From Variovorax sp. 54 (GTDB lineage: Bacteria; Pseudomonadota; Gammaproteobacteria; Burkholderiales; Burkholderiaceae_C), in the NCBI RefSeq assembly GCF_002754375.1, contig NZ_PEFF01000001.1, positions 4,233,501 through 4,297,500 on the forward strand: DNA of 64,000 nucleotides, in the 5' to 3' direction. The first letter of the stretch is position 1, and each line of letters begins with the position of its first letter. The notes under the pieces were generated by a model. The model worked only from the letters and a program-made list of their open reading frames with translations, searched no databases and was not told where the DNA came from. Both the position numbers and the translations under genes were made by a program. This document shows, one piece after another, positions 21,398 through 58,233 of the stretch.

Positions 21398-24300
21398 TCA
21401 CCCGATCGTCATCAGGCTCGCGTTCCCGCCCGCCGCGGCGGTGTTGACGCTCAGCGCGCGCTCCAGCACCAGGCTTTCGAGCGGGATGCCGGTGTCGCCG
21501 GGCGCGAAGCCGCGCACGCCGACGATGGGGCCGGGCCGCGCCGCCACCTGTTGCAACACGGTGGCGAGGTGGCCTGCGTCGCCGTGGTGCAGCACGGCAT
21601 CGAACACCACGGTGGGCGCGCGCCAGTCGTTGGCGAGCACGACCGCGTGGCGCGCCTCGTCGGGCAGCGCAGCCAGCAGTGCGTGTGCGCCGGGCGCATC
21701 GGCGGGCCAGATGGCGGTGCTGCCGACCGAGAGCACCGCCGCGAGTTGCACGAGCCGGTCGGCTTCCGCATCGGCAAGGCACAGCACGGCCTCGCGCGGC
21801 TGCAGCGTGTAGACGTTGCGCTCGCCGGTCGGGCCGGCCAGCGTGCGCGCGCAGCCCACGGGCGCGAGGCCGGCGAAGCGGCGGCACTGCGCGGCGAGTG
21901 CGTCGCGGCCTGTGTCGCGCGCCCAGCCTTCGAGTGCCGCGAGGCCGCTGGCAGGTGCAACGGGTGGGTCTTCGGCCACGGCGCGCACGAGCACATCGTC
22001 GGGCCGTGCCGACAGCAGGCGCGCCATGTACAGCGGCCCGCCGGCCTTCGGCCCCGTGCCCGACAGCCCCTCGCCGCCGAAAGGCTGCACGCCCACCACC
22101 GCGCCGACCATGTTGCGGTTCACGTAGACATTGCCGGCCTGCGCCTGCGCCACCACCTGCGCGATGGTCTCGTCGATGCGCGTGTGCACGCCCAGCGTGA
22201 GGCCGTAGCCGCTGCCGTTGATCTGGCCGATGAGCGCGCCGAGGTCGCGGCGGCGGTAGCGCAGCAGGTGCAGCACGGGGCCGAACACCTCGCGCTGCAG
22301 CTCGCCCAGGTGCTCGAGTTCGACCAGCGTGGGCAGCACGAAGGTGCCGTGGCGCATGTCGTGGCCGAACTCGCGGCCCTGGCGGAACACGCGGCGTCCG
22401 CGCCCGCGCATGCCGGCGATGTGGCGCTCGATGCCGTCGCGCGCCTCGTCGTCGATGACGGGGCCCACGTCGACGGCGAGCCGCGCGGGGTTGCCGATGC
22501 AGCTCTCGGCCATCGCGCCTTGCAGCATCGCGACGAGGCGGTCGGCCGCTTCTTCCTGCACGCACAGCACGCGCAGCGCCGAGCAGCGCTGGCCGGCGCT
22601 GTCGAAGGCCGAGGCCATCACGTCGGCCACCACCTGCTCCACGAGTGCGGACGAGTCGACGATCATCGCGTTCTGTCCGCCGGTCTCGGCGATCAAGGGC
22701 ACCGGCGCACCCTGCGCACCGAGGCGCATCGACAGCGTCTTCTGCAGCAGGCGCGCGACCTCGGTCGAGCCCGTGAACATCACGCCCTGCACGCGCGCGT
22801 CGCCGACCAGCGCGGCGCCGACGGTTTCGCCGCGGCCCGGCAGCAGCTGCACCGCCGCGCGCGGCACGCCGGCCTCCCACAGCACGCGCACCGCTTCGGC
22901 GGCGACCAGCGGCGTCTGCTCGGCCGGCTTGGCCAGTACCGGGTTGCCGGCCGCGAGCGCGGCGGCCACCTGGCCGGTGAAGATCGCGAGCGGAAAGTTC
23001 CACGGGCTGATGCACACCACCGGCCCGAGCGGGCGGTGCGTGGCGTTGGCGAAGTCGGTGCGCGCCTGCGCCGCGTAGTAGCGCAGGAAGTCGACCGCTT
23101 CGCGCACCTCGGCGATGGCGTTGGCGCCGCTCTTGCCGGCCTCGCGCATCAACAGGCCGAGCAGGCGCGGCTGCTGCGCTTCGAGCGATGCGGCGGCGCG
23201 GTCGAGGGCCGCGGCGCGATCGGCGGGCGGTGTGGCAGCCCATGCGGCAGCGATGCCTTCGGCCTGTGCGATGGCCGAGGCCACGTCGCCCGGCACCGCG
23301 TCCTGCACCTGCCCGACGAGGTCGCGGCGGTCGGCGGGGTTGCGCACGTCGGCCCAGGTGCGGGCGGCTTCGTCTTCGGCGCGTGGCGCAGCGAGCATCG
23401 GCGTGGCGCGCCAGGGTTCTGTCGCGCTGGCCTGCAATGTGGCGGCGAGCGCATGCAGCGTGTTTTCGCTCGCGAGGTCGAGGCCTTGCGAGTTGGCGCG
23501 CTGCGCACCGTAGAGCGCGGCCGGCAGCGGAATGGCCGCGTGCGGCAGGCCCATCGCGCCTTCCTCTGCAGCCATGCGTTCGACCGTCGCGACCGGGTCT
23601 TCCACCAGCGTGTCGAGCGGAATCGACGCATCGGCGATGCGGTTCACGAACGAGGTGTTCGCGCCGTTCTCCAGCAGCCGCCGCACCAGGTAGGCCAGCA
23701 GCGTCTCGTGCGTGCCCACCGGCGCGTAGATGCGGCAGGGCCGGCCGAGCGGGCCCACCACCTGCTCGTACAGCGGCTCGCCCATGCCGTGCAGGCATTG
23801 AAATTCGTACTGACCCGGCGTGTAGCGCGACGGGTCGGCCATCGTGTAGATCGCGGCCAGCGTGTGGGCGTTGTGCGTGGCGAACTGCGGGTACACCGCA
23901 TCGGGCGCGTCGAGCAGGCGGCGCGCGCACGCGAGGTACGACACGTCGGTGTAGGCCTTGCGCGTGTAGACCGGGTAGCCCGCCAGGCCGTCGAGCTGCG
24001 CGCGCTTGATCTCGCTGTCCCAGTAGGCGCCCTTCACGAGGCGCACCATGAGCCGGTGGCCGCTGCGGCGCGCGAGGTCGATCACCCAGTCGATCACGAA
24101 GGGGCAGCGCTTCTGGTAACCCTGCACCACGAAGCCGATGCCCTGCCAGCCTGCCAGCGCGGGCTCGAAGCACAGGCGCTCCAGCAGGTCGAGCGAGAGC
24201 TCGAGCCGGTCGGCTTCTTCGGCGTCGATGTTCAGGCCGATGTCGTAATGCAGCGCCAGCAACGCCAGGTCGCGCAGCACCGGGTACAGCTCGGCCATCA

Positions 24301-25138
24301 CGCGCGTGTACTGCGCGCGGCTGTAGCGTGGGTGCAGCGCCGACAGCTTGATCGAGATGCCCGGCCCGCCGTACACGCCGCGCCCGTTCGAGGCACGGCC
24401 GATGGCGTGGATCGCGCCTTCGTACGCGGCGCGGTAGCGGCGCGCGTCGTCGGCCGTGAGCGCGGCCTCGCCGAGCATGTCGTACGAATAGCGAAAGCCC
24501 TGCGCCTCGAGCGTGCGCGCATGCGCCAGCGCCTGGCCGATGGTTTCGCCGGTGACGAACTGCTCGCCCATCATGCGCATCGCCATGTCGACGCCCTTGC
24601 GGATCAGCGGCTCGCCGCCCTTGCCGATCAGCCGTGTGAGCGTGGCCGACAGGCCCGTCTCGCTGTGCGTGGCCACCAGCTTGCCCGTGAGCAGCAGGCC
24701 CCAGGTCGCGGCGTTGACGAACACCGACGGGCTGCGGCCCGCGTGCGCCTGCCACTGGCCCTGCGCGATCTTGTCGCGGATGAGCGCGTCGCGCGTGTCG
24801 GCATCGGGAATGCGCAGCAGCGCCTCGGCCAGGCACATCAGCGCCACGCCTTCCTGCGACGAGAGCGCGTACTCCTGCAGCAGGCCCTGCACGAGGCCGG
24901 AGCGACCGCCGCCGTTCTTGCGTTGGCGCAGCTGGTGAGCGATGCGATGGGCGAGGGCGTGGGCTTCGGCGGCCTGGGCGGCGGGCAGCCGGGCCTGGTC
25001 GAGCAGCGGCTGCAGCGCCTCGGCTTCGGGCGGCCGGCAGGCGGCGGTGATGCGGGTGCGCAGCGCGGACGGCGCGGCGGGGCCGTCCGCGAAAGTGGCG
25101 AAACGCGAGGGCAGGGGGGCGGGATCGTTGGCGCTCAT
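21398..25138 (-). CDS. putA: Bifunctional proline dehydrogenase / P5C dehydrogenase
   Basis: Oxidises proline to glutamate in two channelled steps at the inner membrane face. This 1246-residue PutA has a FAD-dependent PRODH barrel (about residues 90-480) with YGGPGISIKLSALHPRY and LVKGAYWDSEIK. An aldehyde dehydrogenase domain follows (about 570-1010) with Glu818 (ETGGQNAMIV) and catalytic Cys852 (GQRCSALR), 34 residues apart as in the family. A ~200-residue C-terminal domain completes it. There is no N-terminal ribbon-helix-helix, so unlike E. coli PutA it should not repress its own promoter. Control may come from the divergent XRE-cupin regulator. No strong Shine-Dalgarno precedes the ATG. 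Confidence 0.95.
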   Translation of the reverse strand: MSANDPAPLPSRFATFADGPAAPSALRTRITAACRPPEAEALQPLLDQARLPAAQAAEAHALAHRIAHQLRQRKNGGGRSGLVQGLLQEYALSSQEGVALMCLAEALLRIPDADTRDALIRDKIAQGQWQAHAGRSPSVFVNAATWGLLLTGKLVATHSETGLSATLTRLIGKGGEPLIRKGVDMAMRMMGEQFVTGETIGQALAHARTLEAQGFRYSYDMLGEAALTADDARRYRAAYEGAIHAIGRASNGRGVYGGPGISIKLSALHPRYSRAQYTRVMAELYPVLRDLALLALHYDIGLNIDAEEADRLELSLDLLERLCFEPALAGWQGIGFVVQGYQKRCPFVIDWVIDLARRSGHRLMVRLVKGAYWDSEIKRAQLDGLAGYPVYTRKAYTDVSYLACARRLLDAPDAVYPQFATHNAHTLAAIYTMADPSRYTPGQYEFQCLHGMGEPLYEQVVGPLGRPCRIYAPVGTHETLLAYLVRRLLENGANTSFVNRIADASIPLDTLVEDPVATVERMAAEEGAMGLPHAAIPLPAALYGAQRANSQGLDLASENTLHALAATLQASATEPWRATPMLAAPRAEDEAARTWADVRNPADRRDLVGQVQDAVPGDVASAIAQAEGIAAAWAATPPADRAAALDRAAASLEAQQPRLLGLLMREAGKSGANAIAEVREAVDFLRYYAAQARTDFANATHRPLGPVVCISPWNFPLAIFTGQVAAALAAGNPVLAKPAEQTPLVAAEAVRVLWEAGVPRAAVQLLPGRGETVGAALVGDARVQGVMFTGSTEVARLLQKTLSMRLGAQGAPVPLIAETGGQNAMIVDSSALVEQVVADVMASAFDSAGQRCSALRVLCVQEEAADRLVAMLQGAMAESCIGNPARLAVDVGPVIDDEARDGIERHIAGMRGRGRRVFRQGREFGHDMRHGTFVLPTLVELEHLGELQREVFGPVLHLLRYRRRDLGALIGQINGSGYGLTLGVHTRIDETIAQVVAQAQAGNVYVNRNMVGAVVGVQPFGGEGLSGTGPKAGGPLYMARLLSARPDDVLVRAVAEDPPVAPASGLAALEGWARDTGRDALAAQCRRFAGLAPVGCARTLAGPTGERNVYTLQPREAVLCLADAEADRLVQLAAVLSVGSTAIWPADAPGAHALLAALPDEARHAVVLANDWRAPTVVFDAVLHHGDAGHLATVLQQVAARPGPIVGVRGFAPGDTGIPLESLVLERALSVNTAAAGGNASLMTIG

Positions 25139-26483: not shown

Positions 26484-26867
26484 ATGAAACACCCCTTCGC
26501 CGAACTGATCGACCTGCACTGCGAGCAAGCCACCGCAGGCGCCAGCACCATGACGCTGGTCGTCGCGCCGCAGCACCTGAACCCGCATGAAGTGGTGCAC
26601 GGCGCCGTGCTCTACGCGCTGGCCGACACGGGCATGGGCACGGCGCTGTACCCCACGCTCGAGGCGGGCGAGATCTGCGCCACCATCGAGATCAAGATGA
26701 ACTACTTCAAGCCCGTGTTCGAGGGCCGGGTCGTCTGCAAGACCACGCTGCTCAACCGCGGGCGCACCGTCGCCAACCTGGAGTCGCGGCTGTACGTGGG
26801 CGACGTGCTCGTGGGGCATGCGAACGGCAACTACGCGATCTTCCGGCGCAGCCGCGCCGAAGGCTGA
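26484..26867 (+). CDS. PaaI-type hotdog thioesterase
   Basis: A 127-residue hotdog-fold protein with the PaaI/YbgC-like pattern: LNPHEVVHGAVLYALADTGM (active-site HGG-like loop as HGA, then a catalytic acidic residue) and ATIEIKMNYFKPVFEGRVVC. The C-terminal strand is NLESRLYVGDVLVGHANGNY. It probably hydrolyses an acyl-CoA; substrate unknown. It lies 46 bp after the GNAT gene and 76 bp before the large fusion gene, so it may share their transcript. Confidence 0.87.
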   Translation: MKHPFAELIDLHCEQATAGASTMTLVVAPQHLNPHEVVHGAVLYALADTGMGTALYPTLEAGEICATIEIKMNYFKPVFEGRVVCKTTLLNRGRTVANLESRLYVGDVLVGHANGNYAIFRRSRAEG

Positions 26868-26943: not shown

Positions 26944-29900
26944 ATGACTCACCAAGAAGCTCCCGTCCCCCTCGCCGATCTGTTGAACCGCGCCAGGCAG
27001 GCCCTGGCCACCCCGGACGGGGCGCTGCCCCCGGCCGCGCCCGCCACCGACGAGGCCGGCTGCGTGGTGTTCCTCGCGATGGGCGAGGGCGAGAGCCGCG
27101 CCCGCGTCGTCATGGGCCGCGGCCCCGACACCGAGGCCGCGTGGCAGGCCGCCGCCGAGGCGCTGGCCGCGAAGGCCAAGCGCGCCGAGCGGCCCGCGCA
27201 GCGGCTGCGCGCGGAGATCGTCGAGCGGGTCACGCCGATGACCTGGGGCGAACTGAAGGCGCGGCTGGTGCAGACCAAGCGCAACTACTTCAACGAAGGC
27301 ATCGCGTTCGAGGCGCGCTTCGAGACCGCGCTGCTCGCACAAGAGATGCACGGCAGCGCCGTGCTCTACAACGGCACGCTGGACCATGCCGACCCCAACA
27401 GCGGCAACCTGCGCACGCACGCCCAGCGCCGCTTCGGCGCCGAGCACGACTTTCCCACCGACGACGCCACGCCCGTGTGGTGCTTCACCACGCGCGCCGT
27501 GTACGTCGATGCCGAGGGCGCCTGGCCGCTCACGGCCGAAGGGCAGGCCGCGGGCTTTCGCACGCTCACCGACTGGAACGCGAAACAGGTGCGCGCGCTG
27601 GTCGACTCGGCGAGCGACTACCTGGCCGAGCAGGTCAAGCCCACGGGCGAGTTCCATTACGGCTGGTTCCCGTGCTTCGACCGCGCGATTCCCACCTACA
27701 ACACGCTGCGCCACGCCAGCTCCACCTACGCAATGCTCGAAGGCTGGGAGCTCACGCGCAGCGACACGCAGAAGTCCGCCATCGACCGTGCGCTGGCCTT
27801 CCTGAGCCAGCGGCTGATCCGCCGCGCCACGCTGGCTGACGGCACGCAGGCCGCGTTCCTGGTGGACATGGGCAACGAGATCAAGCTCGGCGGCAACGCC
27901 GTGTGCCTGCTGGCCTTCGTGAAGTACACCGAACTGACCGGCGATGCGCAGTACCAGCCGCTCATGGAGCAGCTCGCGCTGGGCATCCGCTCCATGCAGG
28001 ACGCGCAGACCGGCCGCTTCGTGCACGTGCTCAACCACCCGGGGCTCGACGTGAAGGAGCCGTACCGCATCATTTATTACGACGGTGAAGCGGCCTTCGG
28101 CTTGATGCGGCTGTACGGCCTCACGCGCGATGCGCGCTGGCTCGCGGTGGTCGAAAAAGCCTTCGAGCACTTCATCGCGGCGGGCCATTGGCGCGCGCAT
28201 GACCACTGGCTGAGCTACTGCGTCAACGAACTCACGCGCGTCAAGCCCGAAACGCGCTACTACCAGTTCGGCCTGCAGAACATGGCCGGCCACCTGGACT
28301 TCGTGCTGGAGCGCATCACCACCTTCCCCACGCTGCTCGAGCTGATGATGGCCGCGCGCGAGATGGTGCTGCGGCTCGAAGCCGACCCGGCGCTGCGCCC
28401 GCTGCTCGCGGGGCTCGATCGCCACAAGTTCGACCGCGCGCTGGAGCACCGCGCGCGCTACCTCGCCAACGGCCATTTCTGGCCCGAGCTGGCGATGTTC
28501 TTTCGCCACCCCGACCGCATCGCGGGCTCGTTCTTCATCAAGCACCACAGCTTCCGCGTGCGCATCGACGACGTGGAGCACTACCTGTCGGGCTACGTGG
28601 CCTACCACCGGCTGCTCGAAGCGCGCGAGGCGCAGCAAAAGAGCGCGCAGCTCTCGCAGGCCGCCACCGAACCGGCCGCGCCGCGCGGCCTCGAGGGCAC
28701 CGTGTTGTGGGGCGGCGACGTCAACCTGGGCCGCCGCCAGCACTACCGCATGCACGAGTTGGGCGGCCCGGCCCGGATGCTCGGCGACATCCCCGCGCTG
28801 CGCGAGGTGGACCTGCGCATCGTGAATCTCGAATGCGTGGTTGCCACCACGGGCGAGCAGGGCGTCGAGAAGGACGAGGGTGGCCCTTACTACTACCGCG
28901 CGCGGCCCGAGATGCTGTCGGTGCTGACCGAAGCCGGCATCGACATGGTCGCCACGGCCAACAACCACAGCGGCGACTACGGCCCCGAGGCGTTGCTGGA
29001 GCAGCACGGGCTGCTGAACGCCGCCGCCATCGCGTTCGCCGGCACCGGGCCCGACCTCGATTCGGCGCTGCGCCCCGCCTTCCGTCAGGCCGGTGGGCTG
29101 CGCGTGGCGCTGTTCTCGCTCGACGCCACGCAGCCGCGCTTTGCGGCCACCGCGCAGCGCCCCGGCGCGGCCTGGCTGTCGCTCGACGACCCCGCCGCCT
29201 GGCGCGCCACGCTCGCGCCGCGCATCGCTGCCGCGCGCCATGAGGCCGACGTGGTGCTGGTGGCCGTGCACTGGGGCGAGAACCTGGAGACCGCGCCTTC
29301 GCGCGCCGAGATCGCCGTCGGCCATGCCATCGTCGAGGCCGGTGCCGATGCGGTGCTCGGCACCTCGGCCCACGTGCTGCAGGGCATCGAGGTCTACCAG
29401 GGCCGGCCGATCCTGCACGACGCGGGCGACCTGCTGTTCGACGCGATCCGCAACGACCTCGCGGACTCCGGTGTGTTCTCGCTGCGCCTCGGGCCGCATG
29501 GCGTCGAGGAGGTGGTGTTCACGCCGGTGGGCGTGGGCTTCGGTTTCTCGCAGCAGCTCGCGGGCGAGGCGGCGCAGGCCGCGAGCGCGCGCTTTGCCGA
29601 ACTGTGCCGCGCGCTCGGCACCGAGACGACGGCGCGGCCTGATGGACGCTGCGCGCTGCAGCTGTCGCCACCCGAACGCACCGCGCCGGCCGGCCGCCCA
29701 CCGCTGGCGCCGCTGTCGGCGTCGCGCCCGCCCGCGCTCGTCGGCCCCGTGCTCGCGCCCCGGCCCGAATGGTCGGTCGATGCGGTGCCGGCCGATGCGC
29801 AGATGCGCCCGATCGAGATCGGCCCGCTGCGCCTCGTGGGCATCCGCTGCGCGCCGACGCAGATCGTCGGGCGTCGGCTGCTGTGGGTCGAATCGTTCTG

Positions 29901-31734
29901 GACCGTCGATGCGCCCGTGGACGCCGACCTGCGCGTGCAGTTCCGCGCGCTGCCGATGCGCAGCACCACCATGCCGCCGTGGGGCGAGGCCATGGACCAC
30001 GACCCCTGCGACTGGATGTGGCCCACCAGCCGCTGGACGCCGGGGCGCATCTACCGCGACCGCTACGGCCTGCGCGCACCGCGCCCGGGCCTGCTCGAGA
30101 ACGACGTGCTGCAGATCGAGGTGCGCGTGCGAGGCACGTTGCCCGACCTGCCGGGCGCGCGCCGCCTGCCCGTGTGGTGCGGCCTGCGCGTGCCGAAGTT
30201 TCCGACGCCGCTGTCCGAGCGCCCCGCGCCCGTGCTCGCGGCGCTGCGCCCCGGTGCGCCGCCGCAGGCGCCGCCCGTGTGGACCGCCGATGAGCTGCAG
30301 CGCGTCACCGGCGGACAGTGGCTGGTGCCGCCGCCGCCGGACTGGTTCGTGAACGCGGTGGTGCGCGGACCGGCGCACATGGCGCAGCTGCCGGCGCCGG
30401 CGCTGTTCATCGCGTCGGACTACCGCACGCTCGCCAGGCACGAAAACTACAGCAAGCCGCGCGCCGACAACCCCGACCGCCACGACGACCTGCCCGCGCT
30501 GCAGCGCGGGCTGGCGGGCGCCGTGGTGGCGCACCCGGTGGCGGGGCTCGCCCCGTCCTTCCCGCTGCTGCAGGTAGACGACCCGATCCGCGCCATGATC
30601 GACCTGGGCGTGGCCGCGCGTGCGCGCTTCCAGGGCCGCGTGGTGGGCGTCACCGGCACGGTCGGCAAGTCGTCCACCATCGCCATGGTGCGCGACCTGC
30701 TGCCCGAGGCCGCGCGCGTGCACACCACCATCGACAACTACAACTCGCGCGTCGGCGTGCCGGCCATGCTGGCCAACCTCGCGGCCGACGCCGACGTGTG
30801 CGTGCTCGAGATGGCGCAGAGTTCGCTGTGGATGGACCGCGGCCCGATCTCGCTCGTGGCGCGCCCGCACGTGGCCATCCTCACCGAGATCGGCCTGTCG
30901 CAGACCCGCCAGGCCGCCACGCTCGAACAGACGGCCGAGTTCAAGTCGCGCATCTTCCTGGGGCTGGAGCCTGGCGGCGTGGCCATCGTGCCCGACCACA
31001 TTCCCTGCCTGGCGCAGGTGGTGCGGGCCGCGGCGCGCACGGCGGGCGCCATCTGGGTCGTGGGCAGCGGGCCCGACGCCAACGTCCGCATCGTCGACAC
31101 CCGGCCCGAACCCGACGGTGGCTGCCGCGTGCGCATTGCGTTGCCGGGGCGCACGGTCGAGTACCTGTTCCCGATCGCGAGCGCCGGGCTGGTGCGCAAT
31201 TCGTCGCTGGCCTTTGCCGCGCTGCTGGCCATGGGCTTCGACGCCGAGGCCGCGTGCGCGCGCATGCCTTTCGTTCGCCTGCCGTCTTCGGTGATGCAGG
31301 TGCGCGCGCTGCGCACGCAGGGCGGCGTGCAGGCCACGCTGATCGACGACAGCTGGAACGCCGAGGTCATGTCGATGCGCAACGCGATGGAGTTCGTGCG
31401 CACCTACCAGCGTGCCACGCACGGGCCGGTGACGCGCAAGATCGGCGTGCTCGGCCGCATCATCAACCTCGACAAGGAAGCCGAGGCGATGCACCGCAGC
31501 CTCGCTGCACCGGTGCTCGCGTCGGGCATCCAGCACCTCGTGACGCACGGCGCCGAGATGCGCTGGCTGCGCGAGGAGGTGCCGGCCGAGCTGCTCGGCC
31601 CGCACTTCGAAGACGCCGCGCAACTCACCGGCTACCTCGGCGAGTTCCTGCGCGACGGCGACCTGGTGCTGGTGAAGGGCGACCGCCAGCAGTCGGACTT
31701 CGGTCTCGTTTCCGAGCTGCTGCAGAAGCTATGA
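26944..31734 (+). CDS. Giant fusion: toroid-like region, CapA domain and MurF/CapB-like ligase
   Basis: A 1596-residue cytosolic protein without a signal peptide. Residues 1-~575 look like an alpha/alpha-toroid of the six-hairpin glycosidase type (FHYGWFPCFDRAIPTYNTLR; IKLGGNAVCLLAFVKY; YDGEAAFGLMRLYGL). Residues ~585-870 are a CapA-type metallophosphatase-like domain (WGGDVNLGRR, NLECVV, ATANNHSGDYG, VHWGENLE, AHVLQGIEVYQGRPI). About 900-1150 is Pro-rich linker plus a beta-rich segment. About 1155-1596 is a Mur-ligase-like amide synthetase with P-loop GVTGTVGKSS (about 1235) and DDSWNAEVMSMRNAM (about 1468), which matches the MurF DDxxNA motif. CapA and the CapB ligase are separate proteins in poly-gamma-glutamate synthesis; here they share a chain. 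The product is unknown. The stop overlaps the next start (ATGA). Confidence 0.85.
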   Translation: MTHQEAPVPLADLLNRARQALATPDGALPPAAPATDEAGCVVFLAMGEGESRARVVMGRGPDTEAAWQAAAEALAAKAKRAERPAQRLRAEIVERVTPMTWGELKARLVQTKRNYFNEGIAFEARFETALLAQEMHGSAVLYNGTLDHADPNSGNLRTHAQRRFGAEHDFPTDDATPVWCFTTRAVYVDAEGAWPLTAEGQAAGFRTLTDWNAKQVRALVDSASDYLAEQVKPTGEFHYGWFPCFDRAIPTYNTLRHASSTYAMLEGWELTRSDTQKSAIDRALAFLSQRLIRRATLADGTQAAFLVDMGNEIKLGGNAVCLLAFVKYTELTGDAQYQPLMEQLALGIRSMQDAQTGRFVHVLNHPGLDVKEPYRIIYYDGEAAFGLMRLYGLTRDARWLAVVEKAFEHFIAAGHWRAHDHWLSYCVNELTRVKPETRYYQFGLQNMAGHLDFVLERITTFPTLLELMMAAREMVLRLEADPALRPLLAGLDRHKFDRALEHRARYLANGHFWPELAMFFRHPDRIAGSFFIKHHSFRVRIDDVEHYLSGYVAYHRLLEAREAQQKSAQLSQAATEPAAPRGLEGTVLWGGDVNLGRRQHYRMHELGGPARMLGDIPALREVDLRIVNLECVVATTGEQGVEKDEGGPYYYRARPEMLSVLTEAGIDMVATANNHSGDYGPEALLEQHGLLNAAAIAFAGTGPDLDSALRPAFRQAGGLRVALFSLDATQPRFAATAQRPGAAWLSLDDPAAWRATLAPRIAAARHEADVVLVAVHWGENLETAPSRAEIAVGHAIVEAGADAVLGTSAHVLQGIEVYQGRPILHDAGDLLFDAIRNDLADSGVFSLRLGPHGVEEVVFTPVGVGFGFSQQLAGEAAQAASARFAELCRALGTETTARPDGRCALQLSPPERTAPAGRPPLAPLSASRPPALVGPVLAPRPEWSVDAVPADAQMRPIEIGPLRLVGIRCAPTQIVGRRLLWVESFWTVDAPVDADLRVQFRALPMRSTTMPPWGEAMDHDPCDWMWPTSRWTPGRIYRDRYGLRAPRPGLLENDVLQIEVRVRGTLPDLPGARRLPVWCGLRVPKFPTPLSERPAPVLAALRPGAPPQAPPVWTADELQRVTGGQWLVPPPPDWFVNAVVRGPAHMAQLPAPALFIASDYRTLARHENYSKPRADNPDRHDDLPALQRGLAGAVVAHPVAGLAPSFPLLQVDDPIRAMIDLGVAARARFQGRVVGVTGTVGKSSTIAMVRDLLPEAARVHTTIDNYNSRVGVPAMLANLAADADVCVLEMAQSSLWMDRGPISLVARPHVAILTEIGLSQTRQAATLEQTAEFKSRIFLGLEPGGVAIVPDHIPCLAQVVRAAARTAGAIWVVGSGPDANVRIVDTRPEPDGGCRVRIALPGRTVEYLFPIASAGLVRNSSLAFAALLAMGFDAEAACARMPFVRLPSSVMQVRALRTQGGVQATLIDDSWNAEVMSMRNAMEFVRTYQRATHGPVTRKIGVLGRIINLDKEAEAMHRSLAAPVLASGIQHLVTHGAEMRWLREEVPAELLGPHFEDAAQLTGYLGEFLRDGDLVLVKGDRQQSDFGLVSELLQKL

Positions 31735-32681
31735 GCCCGCGCGCGCGCCTGGCCTGTGTGCTCCTCGCGCTCATGCAGACGGCCTGCGCGCAGCGTGCCG
31801 ATCCGCCGAAGGCCGCATCGCCGCGCGAGCCGGCCGCTTCCGCCTCAGCCGAGGGCGCACTGCTGCACTGGAACCAGCCCGCCGTGCGCGCCAACTGCCC
31901 CGACCGCCCCGGCTTCCTCTGGGTGCAGGCGGTCGAGGGGCCGTCGTGCATCCGCTACTTCGCGAGCCGCGACATCGACGACGCGCGCATCGCCATCGTG
32001 CAGTTCTCGGGCGACCGCGACAGCGTGATGAACCAGTCGCCCACGCGCATCCCCGGCAACACCGAACCGTTGCGCACGCTCGACGCGCAGGCCGCGAGCG
32101 ACCGCGCCGGCATGCCGTGGATCTTCATGGCGCGGCCCGGCACCTACGGCTCGTCGGGCGACCACCGCCGGCGGCGCGAGGCGGTGGAGTTCCATGCGCT
32201 CGATGCGGCGCTCGAGGCGCTGATGCAGCGCCACCGGCTGCAGCGCGTGGTGATCGTCGGCCACAGCGGCGGCGCCACGGCCGGCGCCGCGCTGCTCACG
32301 CTCGGGCGCACGCGCGTGGCCTGCGCGGTGCTCACCTCAGGCGCGTTCGACCTGCTGGAGCGCGCGCGCCTGCTCGGCCGCTCGAAGGACGGCCGCACCG
32401 ACACCACGGGCAGCGCGCAGGTCTACGACCCGCTGGACCATGTGGCGGGCATTCCGCGCGACCCGCAGCGGCGCATCGTGCTGATCGGCAACCCTGACGA
32501 CCGCAACACGCCGTTCGCGCTGCAGCAGCGCTTTGCCGATGCGGTGCGCAAGGCGGGCCACCGCGTCGAGGTGATGACGTACGCGGCCGAGCCACCGACC
32601 TTCCACGACCTCAAAGACCGCATCGGCCTGCGCACCGCCTCGCAGTGCGCGCGCGAGGCACTGCAGTCGCAAGCCCGATGA
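31731..32681 (+). CDS. Secreted alpha/beta-hydrolase
   Basis: A 316-residue exported hydrolase. The signal sequence is MSPRARLACVLLALMQTACA; MQTAC resembles a lipobox but lacks a good -3 residue, so lipoprotein versus free periplasmic is open. The fold has the nucleophile elbow VVIVGHSGGATAGAAL (Ser in GHSGG), DHVAGIPRDPQRRIVLIGNP before the acid (GNPDDRNTPFA) and a late His (PTFHDLKDR). A YGSSGDH stretch lies before the elbow. The start overlaps the fusion gene's stop by 4 bp and its stop overlaps galM by 4 bp. A periplasmic hydrolase encoded with a CapA/Mur polymer-type enzyme could trim or release the product; this is inference. Confidence 0.85.
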   Translation: MSPRARLACVLLALMQTACAQRADPPKAASPREPAASASAEGALLHWNQPAVRANCPDRPGFLWVQAVEGPSCIRYFASRDIDDARIAIVQFSGDRDSVMNQSPTRIPGNTEPLRTLDAQAASDRAGMPWIFMARPGTYGSSGDHRRRREAVEFHALDAALEALMQRHRLQRVVIVGHSGGATAGAALLTLGRTRVACAVLTSGAFDLLERARLLGRSKDGRTDTTGSAQVYDPLDHVAGIPRDPQRRIVLIGNPDDRNTPFALQQRFADAVRKAGHRVEVMTYAAEPPTFHDLKDRIGLRTASQCAREALQSQAR

Positions 32682-53192: not shown

Positions 53193-55760
53193 TCAGCCCT
53201 GCGCGATGCGCTGCGCGAGGTGGGCCAGCGCCTCTTCGACCTGGTCGACCAGGATGAGCGACAGGTCGCCCGGCTGCAGCCGCGCCAGCGCGGTGTCGAT
53301 GGCGACGAATTCGCCGCGGATCTCGTCGATCTGGCGCGTGCGCGACGCACCTTGCAGGCCCTGGCGCAGCAGTGCCATGACCTCGCCGTCGGCACGCCCG
53401 CGCTGCGCTGCGTCCTGGTACAGGATCACGTCGTCGAAGGCCTGGCCGAGGATCGCGGTCTGGTCGCGGATGTCGGAATCGCGCCGGTCGCCCGCGCCGC
53501 TGATGACCACCGAGCGCTTGTTGGCGGGCATGGTGTCCACTGCCGACACCAGCGCCTTCATGGCGTCGGTGTTGTGGCCGTAGTCGGCGATCACGGTAGC
53601 GCCGCGGTAGTCCATGACGTTGAATCGTCCGGGCACGCCGGCCGCGTCGTTCATGAAGCTCGACAGGCCGCTGCGGATGGTGTCCCAGTCGAGGCCCACG
53701 GCCCAGGCTGCGGCCACCGAGGCCATCACGTTGTCGACCTGGAAGCCGATGGTGCCGCCGCGCGTGATCGGCACGTCGCGCAGCGCGATGCGTTCGCGCC
53801 ACGAGCCTTCGGCGGCCACCAGCGTGTCCTGGTCGACGTACACGGTGCGCTTGCCTTGCGCGCGGTGCGTGGCCATCACCGGGTGCATGCGGTCGGCGGT
53901 GAAGAAGATCACGTTGCCGGGGCAGCCGGCCGCCATGGCGGCGACGTTCACGTCGGCCGCATTGAGCACCGCGTAGCCGTCGGCGGCCACGTTGCGCACG
54001 ATCACGCGCTTGAGCACCGCCAGGTCTTCCACCGTGGTGATGTAGTTCAGGCCCAGGTGGTCGCCGCTGCCGATGTTGGTGACCACGGCCACCTCGCAGC
54101 GGTCGAAGCCCAGGCCCTCGCGCAGCACGCCGCCGCGGGCCACTTCGAACACGGCCGCATCGACGTCGGGGTGCATCAGCACGTTGCGCGCGCTCTTGGG
54201 GCCGCTGCAGTCGCCGCTGTCGGTCTGGCGGCCGTTGACGTACACGCCGTCGGTGTTCGTCATGCCGGTGCGCAGGCCGCTGGAGGCAATGATGTGGTTG
54301 ATCAGGCGCGCGGTGGTGGTCTTGCCGTTGGTGCCGGTGACGGCCACCACGGGAATGCGGCCGTCGTCGCCGGGCGCGAAGAGCGTGTCCATCACGGCTT
54401 CGCCGACCGCGCGGCCGCGGCCGAACGAGGGCGAGATGTGCATGCGCAGGCCGGGCGCGGCGTTCACTTCGACCACGCCGCCGTGTTGTTCTTCGAGCGG
54501 GCGCAGCACGTTCTCGCAGACCATGTCGACGCCGCAGATGTGCAGGCCGACCATCTGCGCCGCATCGACGGCGCGCGCGGCCACTTCGGGGTGCACGGTG
54601 TCGGTGACGTCGGTGGCGGTGCCGCCGGTCGAGAGGTTGGCGTTGTTGCGCAGCACCACGCGCTGGCCCAGCTCGGGCACGCTCTCGGGCGTGAGGCCCT
54701 GCGACTCGAGCCGGCCGATGGCGATGTCATCGAGGCGGATCTTGGTGAGCGAGGTGGCGTGGCCTTCGCCGCGGCGCGGGTCGAGGTTCACGGTGTCGAC
54801 CAGCTGGCGCACGGTGGAGCTGCCGTCGCCGATGACCTGCGGCGGGTCGCGGCGCGCGGCGGCCACGAGGCGGTCGCCCACCACGAGCAGGCGGAAGTCG
54901 AAGCCGGGCAAGAATTTCTCGACCATCACTTCGCCGTACACGGCGGCCGAGTCGTAGGCCGAGGTGAGTTGTTCGCGCGTGGTGATGTTCACCGTCACGC
55001 CCTTGCCCTGGTTGCCGTCTTGCGGCTTCACCACGACCGGCAGGCCGATTTCTTCGGCGGCGGCCCAGCCGTCGTCGGCGCTGCTCACGGGGCGGCCCAG
55101 CGGCACCGGCACGCCGGCGGCGTTGAGCAGCTGCTTGGTGAGTTCCTTGTCCTGCGCAATCGATTCGGCCACGCCGCTGGTGCTGTCGATCTCGGCGGCC
55201 TGGATGCGGCGCTGCTTGGAGCCCCAGCCGAACTGCACCAGGCTGCCGCTGGTGAGGCGGCGGTACGGAATGCCGCGCGCCACGGCGGCGTCGACGATGG
55301 AGCCGGTGCTCGGGCCCAGGCGCTCCGACTCGTCGAGGTCGCGCAGCGCGGTGATGGCGGCGTCGGCGTCGAAGGGGGTGTCGGCCAGCGCGGCCTGGAT
55401 CAGCTCCTCGGCCAGGGCCAGCGCGCGGCGGCCGACGTCTTCCTCGGAGTACTGCACGGTGACCTGGTACACGCCTTCTTCGGTCGTCGGCGCGGTGTTG
55501 CCGAAGTTGACGGCGCAGCCGGCCTGGGCCTGCAGCGCCACGGCGGCGTTCTCGAGCACGTGGGCCAGCGCCAGCGGCTGGCCGAGCACCATGGGGTGCA
55601 GCTCGCCGATGGTCGGGAAGCGGGCGCGCAGGCGGGCTTCGAACCCGTCGAGCTTGCCGACGGCGTTCTCGTCGCCTTCGCAGGCCACGACGGCCTCGAT
55701 GGTGGTGTGGCGGCTCCAGAGATTGGGGCCACGCAGGGCGCGGATGCGGGTGACTTTCAT
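53193..55760 (-). CDS. cphA: Cyanophycin synthetase
   Basis: Polymerises Asp and Arg into cyanophycin (multi-L-arginyl-poly-L-aspartate), a nitrogen store. The 855 residues show three domains. The N-terminal region (1-160) starts MKVTRIRALRGPNLWSRHTT. The ATP-grasp domain (about 165-465) has GLPVVVKPQDGNQGKGVTVN and EVNAAPGLRMH and adds Arg or Asp. The Mur-ligase-like domain (about 470-855) has an intact P-loop VTGTNGKTTTARL, FEVARGGVLREGLGFDRCEV and YGHNTDAMKALV. All active-site motifs are complete. It lies 90 bp downstream of the second synthetase and probably shares its transcript. Confidence 0.96.
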   Translation of the reverse strand: MKVTRIRALRGPNLWSRHTTIEAVVACEGDENAVGKLDGFEARLRARFPTIGELHPMVLGQPLALAHVLENAAVALQAQAGCAVNFGNTAPTTEEGVYQVTVQYSEEDVGRRALALAEELIQAALADTPFDADAAITALRDLDESERLGPSTGSIVDAAVARGIPYRRLTSGSLVQFGWGSKQRRIQAAEIDSTSGVAESIAQDKELTKQLLNAAGVPVPLGRPVSSADDGWAAAEEIGLPVVVKPQDGNQGKGVTVNITTREQLTSAYDSAAVYGEVMVEKFLPGFDFRLLVVGDRLVAAARRDPPQVIGDGSSTVRQLVDTVNLDPRRGEGHATSLTKIRLDDIAIGRLESQGLTPESVPELGQRVVLRNNANLSTGGTATDVTDTVHPEVAARAVDAAQMVGLHICGVDMVCENVLRPLEEQHGGVVEVNAAPGLRMHISPSFGRGRAVGEAVMDTLFAPGDDGRIPVVAVTGTNGKTTTARLINHIIASSGLRTGMTNTDGVYVNGRQTDSGDCSGPKSARNVLMHPDVDAAVFEVARGGVLREGLGFDRCEVAVVTNIGSGDHLGLNYITTVEDLAVLKRVIVRNVAADGYAVLNAADVNVAAMAAGCPGNVIFFTADRMHPVMATHRAQGKRTVYVDQDTLVAAEGSWRERIALRDVPITRGGTIGFQVDNVMASVAAAWAVGLDWDTIRSGLSSFMNDAAGVPGRFNVMDYRGATVIADYGHNTDAMKALVSAVDTMPANKRSVVISGAGDRRDSDIRDQTAILGQAFDDVILYQDAAQRGRADGEVMALLRQGLQGASRTRQIDEIRGEFVAIDTALARLQPGDLSLILVDQVEEALAHLAQRIAQG

Positions 55761-55850: not shown

Positions 55851-58094
55851 TCATGCCAGTTGTTGTTGGGGGGAAAGCGGCGAGGCCTGCGACAGCTGCA
55901 GCGAGGCCAGGGCCGCCTGCAGGTCGGCTTCGAAGGCCTCGACGCCGGCGCCGATCAGGTTGAGCGGAATGCCCAGGGCCCAGCCCGCGGCCACGGCGGC
56001 CAGCAGGCTTTCGAGGCTCACGCCCACGTGGGTCGCACGCCAGATGGTCAGGCGGCCCAGGCCGGGCAGGAACGATTCGCTCGTGCCGTTGGCCAGCACC
56101 ACGCGGTCCTGGCGCACCAGCACGGCCTTGCCGCCGGCAGCCTGGTGCGCGGACAGCGCGGCGGCCTGCGGGTCGGCCGCATAGAGGATGACGTCGCCGT
56201 CGCACAGCGGCGCCAGCGCGGCGATGCGCGGCTCGTCGGCGTTCAGCACGGCGGTGCCTTCGGCCAGCACCACGTCGACCTGCGTGCGCAGCACCTTGAC
56301 CATCTGGTCGCTCTCGGTGATGTCGTAGTCGGCCAGAGCTTCGGAGCCTTCGAGGTCGGTCACGATGCCGACTTCGCAGCGGTCGTAGGCCAGGCCGTCG
56401 CGCAGGATGGTTTCGGCGCCGTTCTCGATCACCACGGCCTCGACGGCGCGGTTCACGAGCAGGCGGTGGCCGGCGTCCCAGTTGGCGCTGGGGCGTGCGT
56501 CGACGCGGCGGCGTTCGAGGAACAGGCCGTCGCGGCAGGCCAGGCCGGTGTGGCGCCCGCCGAGGTTGATGAGCCAGGCCACCAGCCGTGCGAGCACGGC
56601 GGTGTCGCGCGAGCCGGCCACGCCCACCACGGGGATGCGGCCGGGTGCGTCGTTCGGGAACAGGTGGTCGCAGATGGCGCGGCCCACGGGGCGCGGCGAG
56701 CCGATGGCCGGCTTCAGGTGCATCAGCAGGCCGGGGCCGGCGTTCACTTCGACGATCGCGCCGCCCTGCGGGCCCAGCGGCCTGGAGATGTCTTGCGCGA
56801 CCATGTCGATGCCCGCGATGTCCAGGCCGACCACGCGGGCGGCGAGCACGGCGGCGTGCGCCACCTCGGGGTGCACGAGGTCGGTGCAGTCGTAGGCCAT
56901 GTTGCCGTTGCGCTGGATCGTGACCACGCGGCCGGCGGCCGGCACCGAGCTGCCGTCGAGCTCCTGGCGCTTGAGTTCCAGTTGCAGCTTGGCGTCGGTG
57001 GCCAGCACGATCACGTCGAGCGGAAACTCTTCTTCGGCGCCGCGGCGCGGGTCGCTGTTGAGCTGCTTGTCGATCAGCCCGGCCACGGTGTTCGTGCCGT
57101 CGCCGGTCACGGTGATGATCTCGCCGCGTGCGGCCGCCACCACCTCGCCGCCCACCACCAGCAGGCGGTGTTCGTGGCCGCGGATGAAGCGCTCGACCAT
57201 CACGTCGCTGCCTTCGGGCTCGGCGACCGCGAAGGCGGCCATGACTTCCTCGCGCGTGGTCAGCTCGAGCGACACGCCGCGGCCGTGGTTGGCGTCCGAC
57301 GGTTTCACGACCACGGGCAGGCCGATGTCCTCGGCGGCTTCCCAGGCTTCTTCGGGCGACTCGACCACCTGGCCGTGCGGCACGGGCACGCCGCAGCTCG
57401 CGAGCAGCGACTTGGTCAGCTCTTTGTCGCTGGCAATCGATTCGCCGATGGCGCTGGTGTAGTCGGTTTCCGCGGTCCAGATGCGCTGCTGGTTGGCGCC
57501 GTAGCCCAGCTGCACCAGGTTGCCGCTGTTCAGGCGCATGTGCGGAATGCCGCGGTCGGTGGCGGCGGACACGATGGCCGCGGTGCTCGGGCCGAGGTAG
57601 CAGTCTTCGACCTTGGCCTTGACCGCCTCGACGGCCGTTTGCACGTCGGCCGCGGTGAACGGGTCGTTGTTGATGGCCGCCATCAGCAGGCGGTGGCCTT
57701 CGGCCAGCGCCACGCGGGCGACCTGTTCGTCACGGGCACGGAACACCATGCGGTACACGCCGTGCTCCGAGGTGCTGCGGGTCTGCCCGAAGCCGGTCGG
57801 CATGCCGGCCAGGTTCAGCAGCTCGATCACGACGTGTTCGAGCACGTGGCCCGACCAGGTGCCTTCGGTGAGGCGCTGGATGAAGCCACCGCGCTCGCCC
57901 ACGCCGCAGTGGTGCTCGATGAGCGCCGGCAGCAGGGTGGTCAGCCGGTCGGTGAAACCGTCGATCTTGTTGGAGGGGAAGTCCTCGAGCTTGCCCAGGT
58001 CGAGCCAGACTTCGAGCACCGGACGGTAGGTCCAGAGGTTGGGACCGCGCAAATAGTTGATGCGCAGCAATTGGATGTCGTCGAAACGGGTCAT
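55851..58094 (-). CDS. cphA': Second cyanophycin synthetase-family protein (CphA'), degenerate Mur P-loop
   Basis: A 747-residue CphA homologue. The N-terminal region begins MTRFDDIQLLRINYLRGPNL. The ATP-grasp domain is well kept (GLPVVVKPSDANHGRGVSLE; EVNAGPGLLMHLKPAIG). In the Mur-like domain the P-loop reads VVGVAGSRDTAVLARL (about residue 488), lacking the GKTT of CphA (GTNGKTT), and the domain is about 100 residues shorter. ATP use there is probably lost. CphA2-type enzymes with a degenerate second site condense beta-Asp-Arg dipeptides; this one may do likewise or act as CphA's partner. The start is at the ATG 58094; the longer GTG/ATG reading to 58148 is less likely. Confidence 0.92.
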   Translation of the reverse strand: MTRFDDIQLLRINYLRGPNLWTYRPVLEVWLDLGKLEDFPSNKIDGFTDRLTTLLPALIEHHCGVGERGGFIQRLTEGTWSGHVLEHVVIELLNLAGMPTGFGQTRSTSEHGVYRMVFRARDEQVARVALAEGHRLLMAAINNDPFTAADVQTAVEAVKAKVEDCYLGPSTAAIVSAATDRGIPHMRLNSGNLVQLGYGANQQRIWTAETDYTSAIGESIASDKELTKSLLASCGVPVPHGQVVESPEEAWEAAEDIGLPVVVKPSDANHGRGVSLELTTREEVMAAFAVAEPEGSDVMVERFIRGHEHRLLVVGGEVVAAARGEIITVTGDGTNTVAGLIDKQLNSDPRRGAEEEFPLDVIVLATDAKLQLELKRQELDGSSVPAAGRVVTIQRNGNMAYDCTDLVHPEVAHAAVLAARVVGLDIAGIDMVAQDISRPLGPQGGAIVEVNAGPGLLMHLKPAIGSPRPVGRAICDHLFPNDAPGRIPVVGVAGSRDTAVLARLVAWLINLGGRHTGLACRDGLFLERRRVDARPSANWDAGHRLLVNRAVEAVVIENGAETILRDGLAYDRCEVGIVTDLEGSEALADYDITESDQMVKVLRTQVDVVLAEGTAVLNADEPRIAALAPLCDGDVILYAADPQAAALSAHQAAGGKAVLVRQDRVVLANGTSESFLPGLGRLTIWRATHVGVSLESLLAAVAAGWALGIPLNLIGAGVEAFEADLQAALASLQLSQASPLSPQQQLA

Positions 58095-58233
58095 GCAAAC
58101 GTTCGATGTGCTTTGGCCGAGCACCACGGCGCCTTCAAGCGCTCCCATGGCGATCGGTCAGAATCGGCGCCCGACCAGGGGCGCCATGACGCGGTCCCTG
58201 CGGCCCGCGACGGGCAAGAGTCAAATAAACACA

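Follow-up and report, generated by a model that had tools for sequence, protein, structure and literature searches.

A conserved Variovorax fusion of a toroid, a CapA-like domain and a MurF-like ligase, and its possible link to aspartate-repeat surface proteins

Variovorax sp. 54 encodes a chain of 1596 residues in which a CapA-like domain and a Mur-type ligase follow a toroid-like region. What does such a chain make or modify? A sequence-only reading of the window, as we call the whole 64,000-nucleotide stretch of DNA analysed, had likened it to the poly-gamma-glutamate systems and proposed that this single protein synthesizes an amide-linked polymer.

A conserved fusion frame

The fusion gene (26944..31734, + strand) is one open frame. 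The longest possible ORF starts at 26818 and would encode 1638 residues. The genome is complete (6.64 Mb, single contig) and the protein is 92% identical to its homologue in Variovorax sp. Root473. A near full-length frame occurs in 20 of 61 Variovorax genomes, that of strain 54 counted, and near full-length copies are also found in records of Microbulbifer, Xenophilus, Xylophilus and Pseudacidovorax. Because of this recurrence in the genus and in four other genera, the single open frame described earlier is real, and a merge of separate genes introduced by sequencing is very unlikely. The fusion is also conserved, with dN/dS below 1 in all modules and lowest in the toroid (four pairwise comparisons). 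Among open-licence PMC papers, we found none on a fusion of a toroid and a Mur ligase and none connecting Mur ligases with repeat adhesins.

The modules are named here TOR, CAP, MID and MUR, and their homologues were drawn from genome scans. Pfam matches of the fusion protein are PGA_cap (residues 586-833, E 6.3e-58), Mur_ligase_M (1236-1426, E 1.5e-21) and Mur_ligase_C (1463-1580, E 4.6e-8). The AlphaFold2 model has a pLDDT of 93.8 for residues 1-575 and of 85.4 for residues 576-1596. The toroid, the CapA-like domain and the Mur-type ligase named in the sequence-only reading are all present; a beta-rich domain at about residues 953-1082, our MID, had been omitted.

The toroid module

No Pfam match is obtained for residues 1-575 up to an E-value of 1. 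This whole region had been taken for an alpha/alpha toroid. The assignment holds for residues 209-565 (27568..28638, + strand), which adopt an AGE sugar 2-epimerase-like fold according to the AlphaFold2 model and structure comparison. Residues 1-205 (26944..27558, + strand) form a separate alpha/beta domain in the model, with no family match, Pfam included.

The toroid fold is closest to the sugar 2-epimerases (AGE) and to GH76. TOR shares the alpha/alpha toroid with the AGE enzymes, but its identity to cellobiose 2-epimerase (9l8i, 3wkg) is 14%, its N-terminal domain is extra and the fusion protein has no Pfam match to AGE. Alignment of the toroid with seven AGE proteins by hhalign gave no result. 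Judged by eye from the AGE motif, the positions of the catalytic His pair would be Y379 and R538 in TOR. A sequence-profile search with TOR identified no solved structure, its one match having an E-value of 0.074. Weak Pfam matches occur among 33 TOR rows, to GH88 (7 rows), GH76 (5), GH127 (3) and C5-epimerase (2), with a best E-value of 0.0008. A sugar-type toroid is plausible. Mean column identity over the whole TOR alignment is 57% (29 rows). An even phylum sample of 398 genomes has TOR in 14, Variovorax accounting for two of them. In the scan of the genus, several TOR matches were reported with internal stops, some of which may be mere alignment ends, and one match (G041:C1:1241012-1242391) is split into three pieces and frames.

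The CapA/MslH-like domain and MID

CAP (residues 582-909; 28687..29670, + strand) is a calcineurin-fold domain by Pfam (PF09587, 196.7 bits for a cut-off of 27) and fold alignment. It can be compared with MslH, the epimerase of the C-terminal Trp of a lasso peptide. Residues D592, E630, N674, H675, D678, H776 and H810 of CAP correspond to D11, E44, N87, H88, D91, H259 and H295 of MslH, the D592/D11 equivalence being drawn from the fold alignment range and the motif position, not from the printed HMMER alignment. CAP has seven of the eight residues that constitute the MslH dyads (H88/D91 and H295/D11) and ligands (E44, N87, H259 and H261). The eighth, H261, is replaced by G778, and Gly is found at this position in 21 of 22 rows. 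CAP also scores below the NCBIfam MslH cut-off (91 vs 700 bits). Because it is fused to an ATP-dependent ligase, the CapA part is presumably cytosolic.

MID (about residues 953-1082; 29800..30189, + strand) is beta-rich in the model and contains an H-x-PCDW motif that is invariant in 22 rows. It has no match of its own among the matches listed, which are occupied by ligase and CapA matches.

A divergent MurF-like ligase

MUR (residues 1108-1596; 30265..31731, + strand) is a complete MurF-like ligase by Pfam, NCBIfam and fold comparison. Profile and fold comparison show it to be MurF-like in all three domains, N-terminal domain included; of the earlier label "MurF/CapB-like", the first half stands and the second does not. 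The GVTGTVGKSS P-loop and the DDSWNA motif are both present as quoted in that reading. In the ligase alignment, TGTVGKSS (30652..30675, + strand) carries the P-loop lysine K1242, and DDSWNAE (residues 1468-1474; 31345..31365, + strand) is the diverged counterpart of SYNAN in MurF.

A Mur-type active site had been expected in this region. The full MurF-like fold, the P-loop Lys, E1289, K1334 and H1517 are retained, but the site departs from MurF. It lacks the MurF-type His (Q1320), which is catalytic in that family, as well as the Tyr and the last Asn of SYNAN, which reads SWNAE in the fusion; moreover, the ligase sits within a 1596-residue chain. Q1292, Q1320, W1471, E/T at 1474 and R1505 are common to 13 of 21 aligned ligase rows, the fusion included, and the remaining eight keep the canonical residues (His, SYNAN or TYNAN, GD). 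The MurF family cut-offs are missed (TIGR01143, 197.4 vs 288.6 bits; PRK14093, 212.4 vs 544). Judged by its alignment, the ligase belongs to a divergent class of MurF-like enzymes that has the fold of MurF, middle and C-terminal domains included. An amide-forming role is plausible. A second MurF-like match elsewhere in the genome (L006) is presumably the housekeeping enzyme.

The complete fold, with its N-terminal domain, would also suit a side path from peptidoglycan precursors, in which the ligase would use UDP-MurNAc-peptides or recycled muropeptides to provide anchors for adhesins. Some loci contain partners in keeping with such a path: an OmpA-like neighbour, an S11 carboxypeptidase-type domain, or a second D-Ala-D-Ala ligase-type gene beside TOR/MUR (L058:13158-14054 and L070:8848-9816, in genomes that also have a stronger-scoring copy elsewhere). 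The missed MurF cut-offs, the active-site changes and the further MurF-like match in the genome argue against this path, which we consider decidedly unlikely.

Module combinations and exchange

TOR is found alone and in the architectures TOR-MUR, TOR-CAP-MID-MUR, TOR-CAP-MID, TOR-MID-MUR-S11, TOR-MUR-CAP-MID (L078) and TOR-ATPgrasp. The S11 form is encoded in the strain 54 genome (L080:7966-12468, + strand), where TOR-MID-MUR is joined to an S11 D-Ala-D-Ala carboxypeptidase-type domain in 1500 residues. In the TOR-ATPgrasp form (L108 and L109), TOR is fused to a YheC/D-type ATP-grasp ligase, with no Asp-repeat gene in the fetched stretch. Since two unrelated kinds of ATP-dependent carboxylate-amine ligases are joined to the same toroid, TOR probably acts in concert with the formation of amide or ester bonds.

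The modules may also be separate. CAP-MID-MUR without fused TOR is found at L053-L055, L057, L058 and L061. The Nitratireductor locus L083 has overlapping genes for TOR and MUR, and Paracoccus and Alcaligenes have one gene for TOR and another for CAP-MID-MUR within a single gene row. Agrobacterium plasmids carry TOR-MUR genes. Some chains are chimeric. Over residues 1-500, L028 and L017 are 86-98% identical, a figure that falls to 25-27% from residue 1301 onward. L020 and L027, compared with the fusion protein, reach 25-78% identity in residues 1-600 and 66-89% in the remainder. By these alignments, modules are exchanged among the fusions, a ligase or toroid end being swapped for a distant version.

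Natural TOR-CAP-MID proteins end before the ligase (L035 and L051; G030, G034 and G043), the hydrolase gene described below directly following at L035. These forms, exemplified by L035 and L051, and the presence of TOR alone in some of the aspartate-repeat loci would be compatible with a scaffold, a chain whose ligase and CapA-like modules are no longer catalytic and which only binds the repeat protein, keeping it soluble or competent for export. The exchange of His for Gln and of SYNAN for SWNAE/T in the 13 divergent ligase rows points in the same direction. We nevertheless give little credence to a purely structural role: the P-loop Lys and the other three ligase residues named above are retained, the CAP active site is mostly retained, and dN/dS is below 1 in the ligase.

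TOR genes and aspartate-repeat proteins

Large proteins encoded near TOR bear (DA)n, (DS)n, (DT)n or (DG)n runs of up to about 450 residues. A strict rule was used to count them: at least 10 D-A/S/G/T dipeptides in a frame of at least 150 residues. Such runs are found in 13 of 27 TOR or TOR-MUR loci, in 4 of 12 TOR loci from the even phylum sample, in 4 of 41 window-type loci (L036, L038, L042 and L049, none from Variovorax) and in 1 of the 8 separate CAP-MID-MUR loci (a ninth, L057, was run but is contained in L132). In total, an Asp-repeat gene adjoins at 22 of 88 distinct loci; these locus counts overstate independence because the sets of 27 and 41 were chosen by similarity, some being contig fragments and many related. 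Three TOR-bearing genomes, sampled evenly in 60 stretches of 20 kb (1.2 Mb in all), yield no such run. Together with the secretion controls below, repeats without TOR were gauged in 100 control stretches.

Many of these loci encode a type I secretion system (T1SS). Where TOR and a T1SS occur together, 15 of 21 loci have Asp-repeat runs; among 40 T1SS loci of genomes lacking a TOR match, none does (Fisher p 8e-10). Both sets were hand-picked: the 40 LssB-type controls (39 genomes) come from the upper part of the matches listed, and among the 21 loci L107 has HlyD only and L065 and L110 have weak ABC matches only. With the borderline loci L030, L066 and L076 added, the count is 17 of 24. Restricted to the even sample, the comparison becomes 2 of 4 vs 0 of 40 (p 0.006). 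T1SS alone does not bring Asp repeats. The full fusion itself lies inside an Asp-repeat/T1SS operon in Xylophilus (L042), and at L116 TOR is located about 40 bases after an autotransporter gene bearing an (Asp-Gly)n run.

The ligase is not obligatory, as TOR without an adjoining ligase also accompanies Asp-repeat proteins (L062, L067 and L116). CAP-MID-MUR loci without TOR (L053, L054, L055 and L061) have neither a repeat nor a T1SS operon. In the even sample, 8 of 12 TOR loci, both TOR-ATPgrasp loci included, have no repeat in the fetched stretch, several of these stretches ending at contig ends. The strongest comparative signal suggests that TOR is tied to surface proteins with Asp-dipeptide repeats.

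In Variovorax, the fetched window-type loci have no Asp-repeat gene within about 8 kb, and there is none in the 64-kb window. A TOR-MUR gene, counted where a toroid match falls in an open frame at least about 1000 residues long, is present in 19 of the 20 fusion-bearing Variovorax genomes vs 30 of 61 overall (Fisher p 3e-7, a value that subclades of the genus may inflate). The twentieth fusion genome (G001) has a separate TOR in a 611-residue frame. In strain 54, the TOR-MUR gene at L079 adjoins OmpA, T1SS-type genes and an SD/AD-repeat protein of 1427 residues (L079:9623-13906, - strand) that contains a long SD/AD run and LLGGVLGDDG-type repeats.

Neighbouring genes

The fusion stop codon at 31731 is overlapped by the gene of a serine alpha/beta hydrolase (GHSGG; 31731..32681, + strand) with a signal-peptide-like N-terminus. 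In several loci with a T1SS or an Asp-repeat gene, a relative of this hydrolase accompanies TOR. A lipoprotein was considered and rejected: the relatives have signal-peptide-like N-termini and no consistent lipobox. An aldose 1-epimerase gene (PF01263; 32645..33730, + strand) follows the hydrolase and is the next gene in many Variovorax loci. Upstream of the fusion are genes of a GNAT acetyltransferase and a thioesterase. A PutA-type proline dehydrogenase/aldehyde dehydrogenase with a DNA-binding domain is also encoded upstream (21398-25138, - strand).

Recurrent partners of TOR are a type I secretion ABC protein, HlyD, a TolC-type protein, OmpA, an exported GHSGG/GHSAG hydrolase and a 600-residue membrane family. 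A further one is an MXAN_6640-like HExxH protein, which scores under the cut-off of that model. Of these, the window copy retains the hydrolase only. With the LssB model (cut-off 693.1 bits), the ABC protein of L058 scores above (772.8) and that of L079 in strain 54 below (342.6). The 600-residue family has a hydrophobic N-terminus (L058:6112-7956, L057:6139-7968, also L061 and L114), and neither Pfam nor NCBIfam gives a match for its L057 and L058 members.

The aldose epimerase beside the Variovorax fusions brings up a glycan route. The AGE-like toroid would act on, or hold, a sugar acid of a surface glycan, perhaps on the repeats, and the MurF-like module would amidate its carboxylate (muramic or uronic acid). 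The likeness of the toroid to sugar 2-epimerases and GH76, and the weak matches of a few TOR rows to GH88, GH76, GH127 and C5-epimerase, would fit, and the natural acceptor of MurF is a sugar-linked peptide. However, most runs are Asp-Ala rich and one is Asp-Gly, leaving no hydroxyl for glycosylation, and no glycosyltransferase recurs among the Pfam-scanned neighbours, which are part of all neighbours. On balance this route seems unlikely.

The exporters bear on the polymer synthase proposed earlier, in which the fusion would make its own amide-linked polymer, exported in relatives by the ABC-HlyD-TolC machine. The fusion shares with CapBCA/PgsBCA a CapA-type domain and a Mur-type ligase, here on one chain; exporter genes are found near many relatives; and the exported hydrolase could take the role of CapD. 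The poly-gamma-glutamate analogy nonetheless fails two tests. First, the ligase is not PgsB: the PgsB/CapB model is absent among NCBIfam matches of the fusion protein up to an E-value of 1, and the CAP-MID-MUR relative of L058 scores 29.1 bits for a cut-off of 222.7. Second, CapC (PF14102) has no match in the complete genome, the Bacillus subtilis control being positive (1 of 14 controls). In addition, the ligase is MurF-like over its full length, the toroid is tied to Asp-repeat loci, and the exporters accompany repeat proteins that are their likely substrates. Among the fusion neighbours scanned up to 38 kb, there is no exporter except a solute-binding/ABC set from 38222 on. A polymer synthase is not supported and appears quite unlikely.

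The BapA locus of Paracoccus denitrificans

Paracoccus denitrificans DSM 413 (contig L132) serves as a test case for the link between TOR and a repeat protein. The genes are, all on the same strand, the BapA tail with its (DA)n run, ABC, HlyD, an outer-membrane protein (identified by clustering), TOR, the hydrolase, the 600-residue family (C33) and CAP-MID-MUR. In this species, TOR, hydrolase and CAP-MID-MUR come directly after the BapA-T1SS genes, whereas the Variovorax window copy lies apart from any T1SS. From gene order, Pden_2407 to Pden_2410 would be the TOR to CAP-MID-MUR genes; no mention of them by these names was found among open-licence PMC papers.

According to PMC5588039 (section 7), the biofilm adhesin BapA contains 891 Asp-Ala repeats, bapBCD encodes the sole predicted T1SS, and mutants deleted for bapA or for bapBCD are severely defective in biofilm formation. 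The same section gives an apparent size of BapA above 300 kDa for a true size of 212 kDa, perhaps because of composition or modification. A word search of PMC5588039 and PMC13235738 found no mention of the TOR, hydrolase or CAP-MID-MUR genes as Mur, ligase or CapA.

Proposed function

Our preferred reading, a tentative one that we put at somewhat under an even chance, is that the fusion is a cytosolic multi-domain maturation enzyme that chemically finishes Asp-dipeptide-repeat surface proteins before export. In its favour are the Asp-repeat counts, the ligases joined to TOR or encoded beside it (the S11 form and the D-Ala-D-Ala ligase-type genes of L058 and L070 included), the co-occurrence of the fusion with TOR-MUR in the genus, the seven MslH residues in CAP and the dN/dS values below 1. 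Against it stand the TOR loci without repeats, the repeat loci without a ligase, the altered ligase active site and the action of the nearest toroid folds on sugars. Recognition of the acidic repeat, or of a sugar attached to it, would fall to the toroid. Using ATP, the MurF-like module would form amide bonds, most likely at the side-chain carboxylates of Asp, as the Mur-type domain of cyanophycin synthetase does on poly-Asp; the partner would be an amino acid or a D-dipeptide. CAP may then epimerize or hydrolyse part of the product, and the exported serine hydrolase may trim or transfer it outside. We infer the chemistry, the acceptor and the donor from sequence comparison. The strain 54 fusion would work in trans, its substrate being either the Asp-repeat protein whose gene lies some 2 Mb away, next to the paralogue at L079, or an unseen one. 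Action in trans is proposed because fusion genomes nearly always carry a TOR-MUR gene, which in strain 54 adjoins the SD/AD-repeat protein; it is the weakest step.

A broader version of the maturation enzyme is possible but doubtful. The toroid, together with a peptide epimerase and interchangeable ligases of either the Mur or the ATP-grasp type, might form a new post-translational modification system that amidates repeat Asp side chains in the cytosol, converting a ribosomal poly-(Asp-X) chain into an exported cyanophycin-like adhesive polymer, possibly bearing D-amino acids.

If maturation is the function, BapA and other Asp-repeat surface proteins would be finished by a dedicated ligase machine rather than being bare polypeptides, and the odd behaviour of BapA on gels would be explained. 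Genes annotated as Mur ligase family, MurF or hypothetical would gain a function, and peptidoglycan-type ligases, RiPP-type epimerases and adhesins would become linked.

Synthesis of cyanophycin itself by the fusion was rejected, since TIGR02068 is absent among its matches and Pfam finds no ATP-grasp domain. Unlike the cyanophycin synthetase CphA1, the fusion has no ATP-grasp part, and the same genome has a separate pair of adjacent cyanophycin synthetase genes within the window (53193-55760 and 55851-58148, both - strand), encoding 855 and 765 residues. Both score above the PRK14016 cut-off, and the second is below that of TIGR02068.
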